Positions 10,107-36,533 of a stretch of DNA of 41,862 nt are shown here, piece after piece. Under the pieces are notes generated by a model. It was not told where the DNA came from. It saw only the letters and a list, made by a program, of their open reading frames with translations, and did not search any database. The position numbers and the translations under genes were made by a program. How positions within the stretch are numbered: the first letter of the stretch is position 1; every line of letters begins with the position of its first letter. Where the stretch lies: contig JAVCCC010000006.1 of the NCBI GenBank assembly GCA_030765785.1, positions 1 to 41,862 of the forward strand. Direction: 5' to 3'. The DNA comes from Candidatus Aceula lacicola (GTDB lineage Bacteria; Omnitrophota; Gorgyraeia; Zapsychrales; Aceulaceae).

Positions 10107-11195
10107 TTACTCCTCGTCTTTTGCAGCATCAATAACAAGAGGCTCCTCTGAAGAAGGCATTTTCCCTTTTTTAAAATCTTCAATACGGTTAATCTTTGTA
10201 TCCAAATTCTTAAAACTTTTATCTCGAATATCAGCATACAAATGAACAGTCTTTTTCATCGAATCCCCTAAAGACTGAAAGCGATCTTTAAATGTCGCAT
10301 ATGTTTTAATAAAAAGATCAATCATACGAATAATTTCTTTTGTAGCTTTTTCGTAATAAAAATTTTCAAATGCTTGACGAATGACAGAAAGCATCGAATA
10401 CAAAGTAAATGGTGAACATAAAACAACTTTTTGCTTTAGCGCTTCATCCATCAACCCTGGAAAATTTTCCTGAATAAAAGCAAAAACTTGTTCATTGGGA
10501 ATAAATACCAACACAAAATCAAGCGTTCCCTCTGCTGGGTTAATATAAGATCGATTCTGTATTTCTTTCAGACGCTGTTTCACATCAGACAAGAATTGTT
10601 TCTTGTATGCATCCTTCTGGCCAAGATCCTCTGCATTAACCATTTCCTGATAATTACTTAAAGGAAACTTTACATCCATATTGATTTTATGTTTATTAGG
10701 GAGCAAGAATGTGTAGTCTGGTTTGGTTCCAGTTGAATCAATTTTAGCCTGTTTTTTATAATTAATTCCTTCTTGAAGACCACAGAGTTGAATAATATCC
10801 TCGGCCATGCGCTCGCCCCACTCGCCACGCTTCTGATTGTTCCCCAAAACATTTGTTAATTGATTTGTCGTTTCCTGCAACCTAACTGTTGCCTGAGAAG
10901 TGTTCTTAAGTTCATTGGCAAGGCTTCCATATTTTTCATCTCGATCTTTTTCAAAACGATGCACTAACTCGGCATATTTCTCAATGGTCTGCTTTAAATC
11001 TTTGACTGAATTCTCGACCGCTTGTTTTCTTATTTCCATCTCAGCGGCTGATTTTTCCTCCAATTGCCCTCTCGAAAAATCAAACTCGTAACGCACTTCT
11101 TTTCGAATAATTTCTTTTAATAATAAAATCGATACAGCAAATGAAGCCACAATGGCAATCACAGACCCGACTAAAACCCATACAGAAATTTCCAT
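10107..11195 (-). CDS. rmuC: RmuC-family recombination-limiting protein
   Basis: RmuC proteins limit small-inversion recombination and carry a nuclease-like domain. The 362-residue product has one N-terminal membrane helix (about 5-27) and a coiled coil to about 125. The RmuC domain follows with RGEWGE, KPDYTFLLP and INMDVKFPLSNYQEM; the D..DxK pattern fits the PD-(D/E)XK fold. AAGGAG lies 5 nt before the ATG. The gene is 15 bp downstream of the cyclophilin-fold gene and two genes from dinB, forming a small DNA-maintenance group. Confidence 0.92.
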   Translation of the reverse strand: MEISVWVLVGSVIAIVASFAVSILLLKEIIRKEVRYEFDFSRGQLEEKSAAEMEIRKQAVENSVKDLKQTIEKYAELVHRFEKDRDEKYGSLANELKNTSQATVRLQETTNQLTNVLGNNQKRGEWGERMAEDIIQLCGLQEGINYKKQAKIDSTGTKPDYTFLLPNKHKINMDVKFPLSNYQEMVNAEDLGQKDAYKKQFLSDVKQRLKEIQNRSYINPAEGTLDFVLVFIPNEQVFAFIQENFPGLMDEALKQKVVLCSPFTLYSMLSVIRQAFENFYYEKATKEIIRMIDLFIKTYATFKDRFQSLGDSMKKTVHLYADIRDKSFKNLDTKINRIEDFKKGKMPSSEEPLVIDAAKDEE

Positions 11196-28606: not shown

Positions 28607-29092
28607 TTACAAAAAATATTCCTCGATGCTTGTCCCAAATTCTCCAGGCTCAGAATCATCTTCTTCGTCTAGCATTGCAAGATAAACAATCGCCTGCTCT
28701 TCATTTTCAAGTGCTATTTTCTGACTTGATGTTCTTACAAAAGAAGTCACCGACAAAACAACGATTAAAATACTCACTAAAGCAATCGCAGGCCGAGGCA
28801 AGACAAAAACCTTCTTTATCTTTTCTAAAGAAAGAATATTCTCAGAAATGCTATCCTCCTTAGAAACCTCGACGATTCTCTCTTTGATGCTATGCCACAC
28901 GCTCTCTGGAGGTGAAAACCTCTCAGCATCAGAAAAAGGGTCAAAAGCTGCCTGCTTCGCCGCTAAAGCAAATTCTTTGCAGCTCTGACAGCTTACTAAA
29001 TGATCATCAATTGCTTTACGTGCTGACTCGTTGATCTCGCCATCCACGTAATCAGTTAATAACAATTCTCGAATGTCTTTACAATTCATCAT
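28607..29092 (-). CDS. Membrane anti-sigma factor with zinc-finger (ZAS type)
   Basis: The 161-residue protein starts with a zf-HC2 anti-sigma domain: MNCKDIRELLLTDYVDGE, then HLVSCQSC giving the H-x3-C-x2-C zinc site. A single membrane helix lies at about 104-123 (PAIALVSILIVVLSVTSF), and an acidic tail (LDEEDDSEPGEF) should be outside. It would hold the ECF sigma factor at the membrane until a signal releases it. GAGG lies 5 nt before the ATG at 29092 within the end of the sigma gene (14-bp overlap); ATG 29089 is an alternative. Confidence 0.92.
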   Translation of the reverse strand: MMNCKDIRELLLTDYVDGEINESARKAIDDHLVSCQSCKEFALAAKQAAFDPFSDAERFSPPESVWHSIKERIVEVSKEDSISENILSLEKIKKVFVLPRPAIALVSILIVVLSVTSFVRTSSQKIALENEEQAIVYLAMLDEEDDSEPGEFGTSIEEYFL

Positions 29093-29639
29093 GATCACCT
29101 CTTTTTCTATAACACTCGCTCATTTTTTCTCTAGCCCTTTTAAGTCGCGACCGAACAGTGTTGATGTTAATATGCAAAGTTTGAGCAATTTCTTCATAAC
29201 TTAAGCCTTCAATGTTTCTTAAAACCACGCACGCCTTTTGATCTGGATTAAGGCTATCCAAAAGGCGTTTAAGCAATCCAGCATCCGATTGATAACGATT
29301 AGTCTTTTGAGCCTCAAAATCAACTGCTTCCATTTGATAGTCACTTAAAACAACAGTTCTCTTCTTTTCCTTAATAATTCTTTTTGATCGATTGAGCGCT
29401 GCATTAATCGTAATTCGATAAATCCATGTTTTAAATGATGACCGAAACTCAAACTTTTTCAAATTTTTATACACGCTTACAAAAACATCCTGAGTCACCT
29501 CTTGAGCGTCTTCATGGCTATGAACAATGCGAAAAGCTACATTATAAACAAATCCACTACTAACTCTATAGAGACACTCAAATGCATCCAGATCGCCTTC
29601 AGCTGATCGCTCTAGGATGTCTTGTGCAATTTCTTGCAT
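29079..29639 (-). CDS. ECF RNA polymerase sigma factor (RpoE/SigW type)
   Basis: The 186-residue product has sigma region 2 (FECLYRVSSGFVYNVAFRIV, then EDAQEVTQDVFVSVYKNL and the -10 recognition part FRSSFKTWIYRITINAALNR) and region 4 (LNPDQKACVVLRNIEGLSYEEIAQTLHININTVRSRLKRAREKM). The ATG at 29639 is chosen because AAAGGA precedes it at 5 nt and the longer frame runs into the promoter. It is followed by a cognate anti-sigma gene and the Spy-like gene. The GGAACTT/GTCTAA promoter at 29659-29687 points to autoregulation. Confidence 0.95.
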   Translation of the reverse strand: MQEIAQDILERSAEGDLDAFECLYRVSSGFVYNVAFRIVHSHEDAQEVTQDVFVSVYKNLKKFEFRSSFKTWIYRITINAALNRSKRIIKEKKRTVVLSDYQMEAVDFEAQKTNRYQSDAGLLKRLLDSLNPDQKACVVLRNIEGLSYEEIAQTLHININTVRSRLKRAREKMSECYRKRGDHDEL

Positions 29640-29658
29640 AACGTTCCTTTCTACTATC

Positions 29659-29687
29659 TTAGACAAAAGAAAAATCTAAAAAGTTCC
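29659..29687 (-). promoter_or_regulatory. ECF-sigma promoter of the sigma/anti-sigma operon
   Basis: On the minus strand GGAACTT (29681-29687), 16 bp, then GTCTAA (29659-29664). The -35 matches the GGAACTT element used by RpoE-type sigma factors. Transcription should start about 13 nt before the ATG at 29639. Confidence 0.85.
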
Positions 29688-29827: not shown

Positions 29828-29995
29828 CTACTTCTTCTTTTTAAGTTTCCTATCCGTTCTTGCCAAGGCTTTTTCCATACGATCTAGTGCTTGATTCTGC
29901 GTGCTTCCCTCTGTTAAATGATCGCAACAAAGGGCAGCATATCCTTTACGATTTTTCATCCTAAAAACTTTTACTGCTCTTTTTCCTATTTCCAT
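29828..29995 (-). CDS. HicB-like 55-residue small protein
   Basis: The product is basic and small. Its core GYAALCCDHLTEGSTQNQALDRMEKAL follows the pattern of HicB/UPF0150 domains (GYxAxCPxLPGCxTQGxTxxEALxNxxEAL), so a small alpha/beta HicB-like fold is likely, ending in a Lys tail. No HicA toxin gene is adjacent and no DNA-binding domain follows. AAAGGAG (30001-30007) lies 5 nt before the ATG at 29995. A strongly structured leader (about 30015-30101) precedes it. Function is unknown; an orphan regulator or RNA-binding peptide is possible. Confidence 0.72.
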   Translation of the reverse strand: MEIGKRAVKVFRMKNRKGYAALCCDHLTEGSTQNQALDRMEKALARTDRKLKKKK

Positions 29996-30014
29996 ACAAT
30001 CTCCTTTTAAATGA

Positions 30015-30101
30015 ACGTCTGACTTGTGGAGCCTCGAGGCAAACATAAGTCAGCCACGTGAATTTATCCCGTGAGGCTGCGACCTAGCAGCCGAATAGGG
30101 A
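30015..30101 (-). ncRNA. Structured 5' leader of the HicB-like gene, possible cis-regulatory RNA
   Basis: Two consecutive compound hairpins are seen. On plus coordinates, ACGT+CTGACTT (30015-30025) pairs with AAGTCAG (30047-30053) and ACGT (30056-30059), enclosing an inner GCCTCGAGGC stem (30031-30040). Then TCCC (30067-30070) pairs with GGGA (30098-30101), enclosing GGCTGC (30075-30080) with GCAGCC (30087-30092). The inner loop CCTA (30083-30086) could also pair with TAGG (30096-30099), a pseudoknot option. On the minus strand the structure ends 8-14 nt before the ribosome site. It matches no riboswitch consensus I can recall. Strand is inferred from the gene behind it. Confidence 0.6.
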
Positions 30102-30228
30102 TTTCCTTATAAAGAAAACAATTTATATTTAAATATATATTTATTTTACTGCACGCCCTAATACGAAACAAGACAAAAACAAGAAAGTCTAAATTCTTAA
30201 GTTATGAATAATATCGCAAGAAAATATG

Positions 30229-30256
30229 TTGAGAAACAAAAAATGCATTATATAAT
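30229..30256 (+). promoter_or_regulatory. Promoter for yjbQ, probably leaderless
   Basis: TTGAGA (30229-30234), a 16-bp spacer and a perfect TATAAT (30251-30256) end only 6 nt before the ATG at 30263. The expected start of transcription coincides with the ATG, and no Shine-Dalgarno sequence is present. Confidence 0.65.
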
Positions 30257-30262
30257 TAATCT

Positions 30263-30664
30263 ATGCATATAATAAAAATCTCAACACATACTCGAAATCA
30301 AATTATTGATATCACATCTCAGCTTCAAAAATATATCTCTCAAAACAATTTTCAATCAGGACTGCTTACTGTCTTTTCTCCGCACACAACTGCTGGCATC
30401 ACAGTTAATGAAAATGCCGATCCAGACGTAAAAAACGACATTGTGTCATTCCTGCAAAAAACAATTCCTCAAAACAATCAGTTCGCACATGCAGAAGGAA
30501 ATTCTGATGCGCATATAAAGGGAAGCTTGGTTAACTTCTCCCAAAACTTCATTATTGAGAACAAACAAATTCAGCTAGGCACATGGCAAGGAATTTTCTT
30601 TATGGAATTTGATGGGCCTCGCTCAAGAGAAGTCTGGCTTAAATTTCTACCTGACAAAGGATAA
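30263..30664 (+). CDS. yjbQ: YjbQ/UPF0047 family protein
   Basis: The 133-residue cytosolic protein matches the secondary thiamine-phosphate synthase family. Conserved pieces are FSPHTTAGITVNENADPDV (about 39-57), HAEGNSDAHIKGSL (about 76-89), and LGTWQGIFFMEFDGPRSR near the end. Purified members show weak thiamine-phosphate synthase activity and a metal-binding site; the cellular role is unsettled. The ATG lies at the predicted transcription start. The phosphatase gene begins 2 nt after its stop and uses AAAGGA inside the last codons. Confidence 0.93.
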   Translation: MHIIKISTHTRNQIIDITSQLQKYISQNNFQSGLLTVFSPHTTAGITVNENADPDVKNDIVSFLQKTIPQNNQFAHAEGNSDAHIKGSLVNFSQNFIIENKQIQLGTWQGIFFMEFDGPRSREVWLKFLPDKG

Positions 30665-34814: not shown

Positions 34815-35897
34815 TTATCCGTTTGCAGCTTCAAACTCTTTCATAAGCTCTACCAAAGCCTTGACGCCTTGCGTCGGCATAGCATTATAAATACTTGCAC
34901 GCATGCCTCCAACCGTACGATGTCCCTTAAGAGTCTTAAATCCTTTTTTAGCAGCTTCTGCAATAAGCTTAGCGTCTAGCTCGTCGTTTCCAGTCACAAA
35001 AGGAATGTTCATCAGCGATCGGCTTGCCTTATCTACAGGACTACTAAAAAGCTTTGACTGATCTAAAAAATCATAAAGAATTGCTGCCTTCTCTTCATTG
35101 ATTTTCTTCGTCGCAACTAAACCACCTTTTTCTTTAATCCATTCAAACACAAGCCCTGCTATATAAATTGAATAACATGGAGGCGTATTAGCCATAGATC
35201 CGTTATCCGCTTGCACTTTATAATTAAGCAATGTTGGAATGTTCTCTACGGCATTGCCAATTAAATCCTCCCGGATAATCACAATCGTAAGTCCTGCTGG
35301 TCCGATATTTTTCTGAGCACCTGCGAAAATGACGCCGAATTTCTTAACATCAATTGGCTCAGATAAAATATTCGACGACATGTCCGCAACAATCGGCACA
35401 TCCCCTGTTTCAGGAATACTCTTGCAACATGTTCCATAAATAGTATTGTTCGTCACAATATAAAAATAATCTGCATCCTTCGAAAACGTTTTTGGGTCAA
35501 GCTCTGGAATATAAGTAAAATTATTATCTTCAGAGCTTGCCACTACGTTAACGATGCCAAATTTTTTAGCTTCGGCAATTGCTTTCTTCGTCCATTGACC
35601 GGTGTGTACATAATCTGCTTTTTTATTCTTTGTCATTAAATTTAGCGGGATCGCGGTAAACTGCATAGATGCCCCGCCCTGCAAAAAAAGAACCTTATAA
35701 TTATTAGGAATTCCCATGATTTCGCGCAAAGTCGCCTCAGCCGTATCAAAAATTTGCGTAAACTCTTTACCACGATGAGACAACTCCATCACAGACATAC
35801 CGCTTCCTTGATAATCAAGCATTTCTCCTGCAGCTTTCTTTAAAACTTCCTCTGGCAATGTTGCTGGTCCTGCACTAAAATTGTACACTCTTGTCAT
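34815..35897 (-). CDS. serC: Phosphoserine aminotransferase
   Basis: This PLP enzyme converts 3-phosphohydroxypyruvate to phosphoserine and has 360 residues, the normal length. It starts YNFSAGPATLPEEVL (about 5-19), has HRGKEF (41-46), the PLP-binding Lys196 in FAGAQKNIGPAGL, and the C-terminal GHRTVGGMRASIYNAMP. It follows rex by 15 bp and precedes serA. Confidence 0.97.
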   Translation of the reverse strand: MTRVYNFSAGPATLPEEVLKKAAGEMLDYQGSGMSVMELSHRGKEFTQIFDTAEATLREIMGIPNNYKVLFLQGGASMQFTAIPLNLMTKNKKADYVHTGQWTKKAIAEAKKFGIVNVVASSEDNNFTYIPELDPKTFSKDADYFYIVTNNTIYGTCCKSIPETGDVPIVADMSSNILSEPIDVKKFGVIFAGAQKNIGPAGLTIVIIREDLIGNAVENIPTLLNYKVQADNGSMANTPPCYSIYIAGLVFEWIKEKGGLVATKKINEEKAAILYDFLDQSKLFSSPVDKASRSLMNIPFVTGNDELDAKLIAEAAKKGFKTLKGHRTVGGMRASIYNAMPTQGVKALVELMKEFEAANG

Positions 35898-35912
35898 TTT
35901 AAACCTCCATGA

Positions 35913-36533
35913 TTATTGTTTAGTAATAAACTTTGCTGCAACAAAGCGCAAAGCATTTGTAAAATCCATATCCAAATAAATAATATTTTTAGGCACCACA
36001 ATTTTTGCCGGGGAAAAATTTAAAATTCCTTTTATTCCAGCTTCAATCAATTGATCGGCCACCTGCTGTGCTGATTTTGCCGGCACCGTAATAATCCCTA
36101 AATCAACCGACCTTCCCTTAATAATATTCTCAAGCTCACTCATTGGAAACACTTCGATATGAGTACGAATTCGCTCAAGTTTATTAATGCTACAATCAAA
36201 TCCTGCTACAACCTCAAATCCATCTTCCTTTGCTCTTTCATAATCCAAAAGCGCTGTGCCAAGTCGGCCCAATCCAATAATGCAAGCCTTTCGCTTTTTA
36301 TTAAGTTCAAGTTTTTTAGCCAATTCCTTTTTAAAAAATCGAACTGAATACCCTTTACGCGTATAACCTGTCATCCCTAAAAGGCTAATATCCTTTCGAA
36401 TCGTATGATCCGTAGTACCTAGCGCCTCAGCTAATTCTTTAGACGAAACAAAATCTACTCCTCTTTCCTCTAATGCATCAAGATATCCATATATTTTTGT
36501 AATTCTTTCAATTGTATTGTTAGATAAGTCCAT
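35913..36533 (-). CDS. rex: Redox-sensing transcriptional repressor Rex
   Basis: Rex senses the NADH/NAD+ ratio and leaves DNA when NADH is high. The 206-residue protein has an N-terminal winged helix (1-70; SSKELAEALGTTDHTIRKDISLLG, GYTRKGY), a Rossmann domain with IGLGRLGTALL (86-96), and a C-terminal swapped helix (FTNALRFVAAKF). The ATG at 36533 has GGAGG 5 nt upstream; a longer frame to 36545 is rejected. The operator-like palindrome at 36551-36570 in its own promoter suggests autoregulation of the whole rex-serC-serA-flavoprotein-GIY-YIG operon. Confidence 0.96.
   Translation of the reverse strand: MDLSNNTIERITKIYGYLDALEERGVDFVSSKELAEALGTTDHTIRKDISLLGMTGYTRKGYSVRFFKKELAKKLELNKKRKACIIGLGRLGTALLDYERAKEDGFEVVAGFDCSINKLERIRTHIEVFPMSELENIIKGRSVDLGIITVPAKSAQQVADQLIEAGIKGILNFSPAKIVVPKNIIYLDMDFTNALRFVAAKFITKQ

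Follow-up and report, generated by a model that had tools for sequence, protein, structure and literature searches.

A structured leader in Candidatus Aceula lacicola is probably one copy of a mobile-looking repeat family of Omnitrophota

The structured leader of a small basic gene in Candidatus Aceula lacicola probably belongs to a family of small, modular, non-coding and mobile-looking interspersed repeats found across the phylum Omnitrophota; the repeats would insert at purine-rich, Shine-Dalgarno-like sites. The family is structured and covarying and occurs in high copy number. Orthologous sites in congeners are filled in some cases and empty in others, and one genome has near-identical dispersed copies. 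The members lie for the most part in sense, immediately ahead of start codons. Within the window, that is, the whole 41,862-nt stretch of DNA analysed, the covariance model R1 matches the element at 100.9 bits (E 1.6e-23 in a search of the window), and a second strong R1 match is absent from the window. The features are collected in Table 1.

Table 1. Parts of the repeat copy, the adjoining gene and one comparison site, in window coordinates
Feature	Position	Strand	Basis
Structured interspersed repeat, one copy	30003..30104	-	R1 covariance-model match and alignments
P1 5' arm TCCC, partner GGGA	30098..30101	-	Pairs 5-40, 6-39 and 7-38 (14-copy alignment); helix 1 96.9% paired (own-genome alignment)
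P1 3' arm GGGA, partner TCCC	30067..30070	-	As for the P1 5' arm
P2 hairpin GGCTGC-TAGGTC-GCAGCC	30075..30092	-	Six pairs, of which five show compensatory double changes across the 14 aligned copies
Outer P3 helix 5' arm TAAAT, partner ATTTA at 30008-30012	30062..30066	-	14-copy alignment; helix 3 96.3% paired
Outer P3 helix 3' arm ATTTA, immediately 5' of the ribosome site	30008..30012	-	As for the outer 5' arm
P3 basal arm ACGT, partner ACGT at 30015-30018	30056..30059	-	Anchor-only complementarity test
Upper P3 hairpin CTGACTT ... AAGTCAG, conserved internal loops	30019..30053	-	Covariation alignments
AAGGAG, Shine-Dalgarno-like site of the downstream gene	30001..30006	-	Sequence
Basic 55-aa gene, small conserved family of this order, matching no known family	29828..29995	-	Relatives in 21 of 54 genomes
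Empty site around the start of the serC-like ORF 34815..35897; occupied in the congener G001; comparison site outside the copy	35890..35930	-	Cross-genome alignment; no second strong R1 match in the window

The element runs from 30104 to 30003 on the minus strand, reading AAATCCC...TTTAAAAGG, and its 3' end adjoins the AAGGAG that precedes the ATG at 29995 of the 55-codon gene. The initial annotation had placed a structured leader at 29828-30110, with about 90 nt of it before the ribosome site. The hairpins are indeed present on the minus strand, with covariation across the family far beyond chance, and the length was right, but the lower part of that interval, 29828..29995, is the gene itself. 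The description as two compound hairpins with perfect stems holds for the presence of hairpins and not for their build, since a 5' domain (P1 around P2) is followed by the conserved joint TAAATTC and then by one long bulged P3, which has a two-base bulge and internal loops and is closed beside the ribosome site by the short outer helix TAAAT/ATTTA. A pseudoknot proposed between CCTA and TAGG was rejected, as 71.4% of cells pair against 70.9% in shuffles and covariation is absent. The leader of 141 nt has a folding energy of -38.8 kcal/mol (z = -2.39), with three of 200 shuffles equally stable. The remark that it fits no riboswitch agrees with Rfam, where no family matched in the window at the gathering score and where a search of both leader strands up to E = 10 gave one weak CRISPR-repeat match outside the element and nothing else; the suggested covariance analysis, carried beyond Rfam, revealed true compensatory changes.

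In the own genome, blastn recovered a second copy, which is 75% identical and lies inside a long reading frame, and many more copies were found in 35 related genomes. By R1, the own genome (G000, 1.5 Mb) carries at least 43 copies at E < 0.01, the congeners at least 82 (G001) and 42 (G002), and genomes of other families 75 (G219) and 27 (G126). In a survey that scored only 14 candidates per genome, R1 had matches at E <= 1e-4 in 171 of the 285 Omnitrophota genomes, and the 114 others, without a match, indicate that the model does not respond indiscriminately. When 84,980 species genomes were scanned with a sequence pattern, 10 stretches matched, all of them (10/10) in Omnitrophota records. The copies are about 80-140 nt long, modular and non-coding; extra hairpin-plus-linker modules are present in G000:C14 and G000:C56, and an extra hairpin in the copies of G030. 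A linker module, AACGTTC..AAACGTTAA, was also seen between the hairpin modules of composite copies (L009 at about 560-600, L116 and L054). The near copies analysed below number 137 (the complete G000 set of 43 at E < 0.01, 61 of the 82 in G001, 30 of the 42 in G002 and three in G003), of which 136 were used, one G002 copy having fallen outside the loci analysed.

The fold is documented by comparison of the copies. The consensus of the 14-copy alignment has 28 pairs, 15 of which show compensatory double changes. Across the 43 own-genome copies, 94.2% of the pair cells are standard, double changes affect 23 of the 28 pairs, and the double-changed cells number 193 against 55 in shuffles; when the partner was slid by 1-3 columns as a control, pairing fell to 30-44%. 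Because the alignment of these 43 copies had been fitted to the model, the test was repeated without it, using anchors only, such that the four bases after an (A/G)ATTC-like joint were compared with the four before a TCA-like tail. Both anchors are present in 127 of the 136 copies, and 102 of these 127 are fully complementary, whereas shuffled partners gave a mean of 25.2 and a maximum of 36. The anchored arms contain 24 G-T against 6 A-C (stricter anchors, 100 of the 136 copies, rows with fewer than three matching positions dropped, copies not independent of one another), and the folding strand is therefore the one reading toward the gene, either as RNA or as single-stranded DNA. This count replaces a GU bias in the model-fitted alignment (46 vs 29), which was discounted since the fit itself tends toward GU pairs.

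An ATG frame of at least 100 aa starts in a 32-nt interval at the 3' end in 66 of the 136 copies from four genomes, as against 2/136 for the mirrored 5' interval, and the start distances peak twice, at -6 (the ATG of TTTATG) and at +4 to +8 behind AAGGAG. Three distant families gave 8/12, 6/12 and 7/15 in sense and 0 in antisense; G206 is an exception, with ATG frames at 0/15 in sense and 3/15 in antisense. In roughly a third of the 136, no ORF follows; both this class and that of the starts use mechanical ORFs, for which reason short genes such as the window's are counted as having none. The genes behind the elements include those for rubredoxin, DegT aminotransferase, ribulose-phosphate epimerase, aldolase, PFOR, TIM, DnaJ, a PlsX-type protein, FolE and SecA, and the 20 proteins scanned (19 behind own-genome copies and one ORF with an internal element) fall in diverse Pfam families with no functional theme among them.

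Some copies lie elsewhere. Eight of the 136 are in open frames of at least 120 aa, five of these being ORFs of 782-999 aa. These five in-frame copies read ..FAQADLT..RKSGAH(L/S)K.. (L009 523..700; G001:C4:64850, C1:5745, C2:75195 and C17:30915), and such FAQADLT...RKSGAH(L/S)K stretches are protein inserts made by the repeat. Five copies in four genomes, observed incidentally and not from a systematic count, adjoin tRNA genes (three tRNA-Ser, one tRNA-Leu and one tRNA-Arg), and the three tRNA-Ser genes have GGAGAGG at their 5' ends. Copies that flank tRNA genes or are read in frame cannot serve translation initiation. As separate observations in G206, a copy at C6:3908 (L247) abuts the 3' end of a tRNA-Cys gene in antisense, and the 3' flank of L246 (C24) is, by eye, the reverse complement of a 23S rRNA end.

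The comparison of orthologous sites is among the grounds for thinking that the family probably spreads as a non-autonomous mobile element. Eighteen of 42 cross-genome comparisons, made at loci enriched for filled sites, came out empty, two of these calls (targets at G001:C16:23252) being an artefact of the 80-nt cut-off, as the copy ends 85 nt away. Three of ten empty/filled alignments are clear; that of the window gene's leader with G001 is only rough, and several others are uninformative. The locus G001:C2:105049 is filled and the matching G000 site, AAGGA/AAGAGATATG, is empty, and the serC-like ORF and the gene starting at 11195 each have an empty site in the window and a filled one in G001; these are the well-aligned pairs. 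Further, G030 holds six closely related copies (five with the whole unit, one with the 3' part only) before six different genes, the flanks of the copies being unrelated outside TCCC...CTCAT. The genes downstream of the 97 copies with an ORF behind form 84 clusters, 74 single-member and 10 recurring.

Entry would take place at purine-rich AGG or GGAG, which are Shine-Dalgarno sites in mRNA and also occur at tRNA-Ser 5' ends. At the 5' edge, 47 of the 136 copies have AGG, against 4.8% at random positions, and a preference for inserting at AGG/GGAG would explain the starts, the sense orientation and the tRNA-Ser genes together, although AGG and GGAG near starts could in part be ordinary Shine-Dalgarno sequence. 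Once landed, the element would end flush with the ribosome site or supply a TTTATG start, such that the gene could stay translatable; in its RNA form, with P1/P2, the bulged P3 and the outer AU helix bordering the ribosome site, it may modestly tune translation or mRNA stability. The idea that a Shine-Dalgarno sequence at the 5' edge is bridged to the AUG at the 3' end was dropped, since SD-like 5' edges are not more frequent among copies of the TTTATG class (7/22) than among those with a 3' Shine-Dalgarno site and no TTTATG (30/71).

Could the family instead be a shared cis-regulatory RNA? A single trans-acting protein or RNA would then bind it as a translational leader, and the family would define a post-transcriptional regulon of about 3% or more of genes and would spread by copying because it is useful. 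The strong bias for the sense strand and the start codon, the ends fixed relative to the ribosome site, the compensatory changes between copies and the excess of G-T over A-C are all consistent with this account. Hosts that recur across species (tpiA, rubredoxin and rsmD, with the leader of a NUDIX gene likewise retained at its orthologous site) favour selection. However, copies inside frames, against tRNA genes and in tandem arrays without an ORF, together with the lack of a theme among the 20 scanned proteins and the fact that congeners do not share most sites, make it rather unlikely. It is also rather unlikely that a mobile RNA-folding cassette, inserting in sense at GGAG-type sites with its own start context (TTTATG or TTTAAGGAG), has by now come to serve the whole phylum as a shared translational leader, one that a single RNA-binding factor might read and that controls a few percent of genes, including essential ones.

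It is improbable that the repeat is a single-strand DNA element like REP/IS200-IS605, mobilised by a Y1 (HUH) transposase through recognition of the imperfect P3 palindrome. The palindrome with its conserved mismatches, the head-to-head copies in other families and the presence of Y1_Tnp in 26 of 35 relatives point that way, but Y1_Tnp was found 0 times in G000 (95.7% complete) and G002 and once in G001, despite 42, 41 and 81 copies, respectively, and G018 has 12 Y1_Tnp matches but one copy. Y1/RAYT was thus rejected as the current driver, being absent from the own genome. The lack of a mobilising gene in these counts also weighs against the favoured reading of a mobile-looking repeat, as do the recurring hosts, the copies with no ORF behind and the G206 exception. 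So does the result for a target-site duplication, which was not found among 115 loci, where the longest shared flank stretch averages 5.37 nt at the same locus vs 4.93 nt across loci; shared stretches of at least 8 nt occur in 7/115 vs 1.9%. The window's form has differing ends and no terminal inverted repeat; in G219 and G126, inverted ends arise from P3 copies arranged head to head. In the head-to-head composites L272, L274 and L270 (G219) and L269 (G126), the P3 units face outward around one central hairpin; a long ORF starts behind one side only in the first three and behind neither side in L269. Tandem arrays, which speak for mobility, also occur, some without an ORF, and at G001:C22:14689-15167 and C23:13926-14260 the tandem units include about 20 nt of flanking sequence, which is duplicated too.

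A leader specific to the 55-aa gene, whether as an autoregulatory site for its basic product or as a riboswitch, is almost certainly not the explanation in spite of the stable fold and the position right before the start, because the element is missing from that position in 20 of the 21 genomes that have a homologue, which refutes a conserved arrangement and led to the rejection of autoregulation by this gene, and because the same element precedes unrelated genes. The initial annotation had suggested a riboswitch or a protein-binding leader, perhaps bound by this product, and its riboswitch alternative fares no better: a ligand-specific switch is at odds with 43 or more copies preceding rubredoxin, secA, tpiA, dnaJ, folE and other unrelated genes, along with those in frames and at tRNA genes. 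The HicB-like label was also without support, as neither the query nor 15 aligned members of the gene family had a HicB-family match in Pfam, NCBIfam or PDB sequences. Among the 21 genomes (of 54) with a relative of the gene, only the window copy has the element in front by R1 search, and the homologues in G001, G002 and G003 are without it. On the favoured reading of a mobile-looking repeat, the element would have entered this leader in the lineage of this species only. The gene starts at the ATG at 29995 behind AAGGAG; a longer ORF start at 30046 falls inside the element, and the resulting 72-aa ORF is a false N-terminal extension created by it. In the modelled ensemble of the window leader, AAAAGGAG is mostly unpaired (0.40-0.95 per base) and the AUG about half so (0.52-0.55), which suggests that the 55-aa gene is probably still translatable after the insertion. 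The 15 aligned members share 14 invariant columns (F11, N15, R16, G18 and others).

Judged by its features, the family works most like the Rickettsia palindromic elements and the BOX repeats. The former are described in a review as small folded repeats in many unrelated genes, some of them in frame and translated (PMC10969869). In-frame insertion with a conserved peptide is found here too, as a minor fraction (8/136), but the Omnitrophota copies lie mostly before start codons with few in ORFs, belong to another phylum and are likened by features and not by sequence. The BOX elements of Streptococcus pneumoniae are modular interspersed repeats situated beside genes, with RNA stem-loops predicted for them, and are sometimes transcribed as part of 5' and 3' operon extensions (PMC3049150). 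The build from repeated hairpin units is shared, whereas the Omnitrophota copies sit hard against the ribosome site in sense and are likened to BOX by their build and not by boxA/B/C sequence. ERIC and Correia elements are non-autonomous, high-copy, folded and intergenic, and REP/BIME are imperfect palindromes with tandem and head-to-head copies. The present repeat shares the first set of traits with MITEs, ERIC/RU and Correia elements, yet the window's form has no terminal inverted repeats and no target-site duplication was found; it shares the second set with REP/BIME and their RAYT, yet its two-domain fold is larger and no Y1/RAYT gene was found in the own genome. It was filed neither as a MITE nor as REP/RAYT because target-site duplication and transposase were both looked for and not found. 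Like Rfam riboswitches and leaders, it is a covarying structured 5' leader, but it has no Rfam match and is spread over many unrelated genes, with coding and tRNA-flanking copies.

Rickettsia, pneumococcus, Neisseria and enterobacteria are known to carry small interspersed repeats. In Omnitrophota, a candidate phylum, such a repeat occurs at high copy number with an unusually tight seat at translation starts; searches of the literature on Omnitrophota, Omnitrophica or Aceula and on repeats at Shine-Dalgarno sites, in part weak as evidence, gave no description of such a family among the papers listed. If under selection, the family would amount to an extensive post-transcriptional regulon of uncultured bacteria; if selfish, to an element that lands at ribosome-binding sites and leaves translation running. 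In both cases it misleads annotation, since it produces false leader 'riboswitches', false N-terminal extensions and spurious protein inserts.

Two features of the neighbourhood may be added. On the minus strand, 28607..29666 holds an ORF for an ECF-type sigma factor with a zf-HC2 (anti-sigma type) ORF behind it. On the plus strand, a near-consensus promoter-like sequence, TTGAGA-16-TATAAT (11/12), lies at 30229..30256, directly before the UPF0047 gene at 30263..30664.
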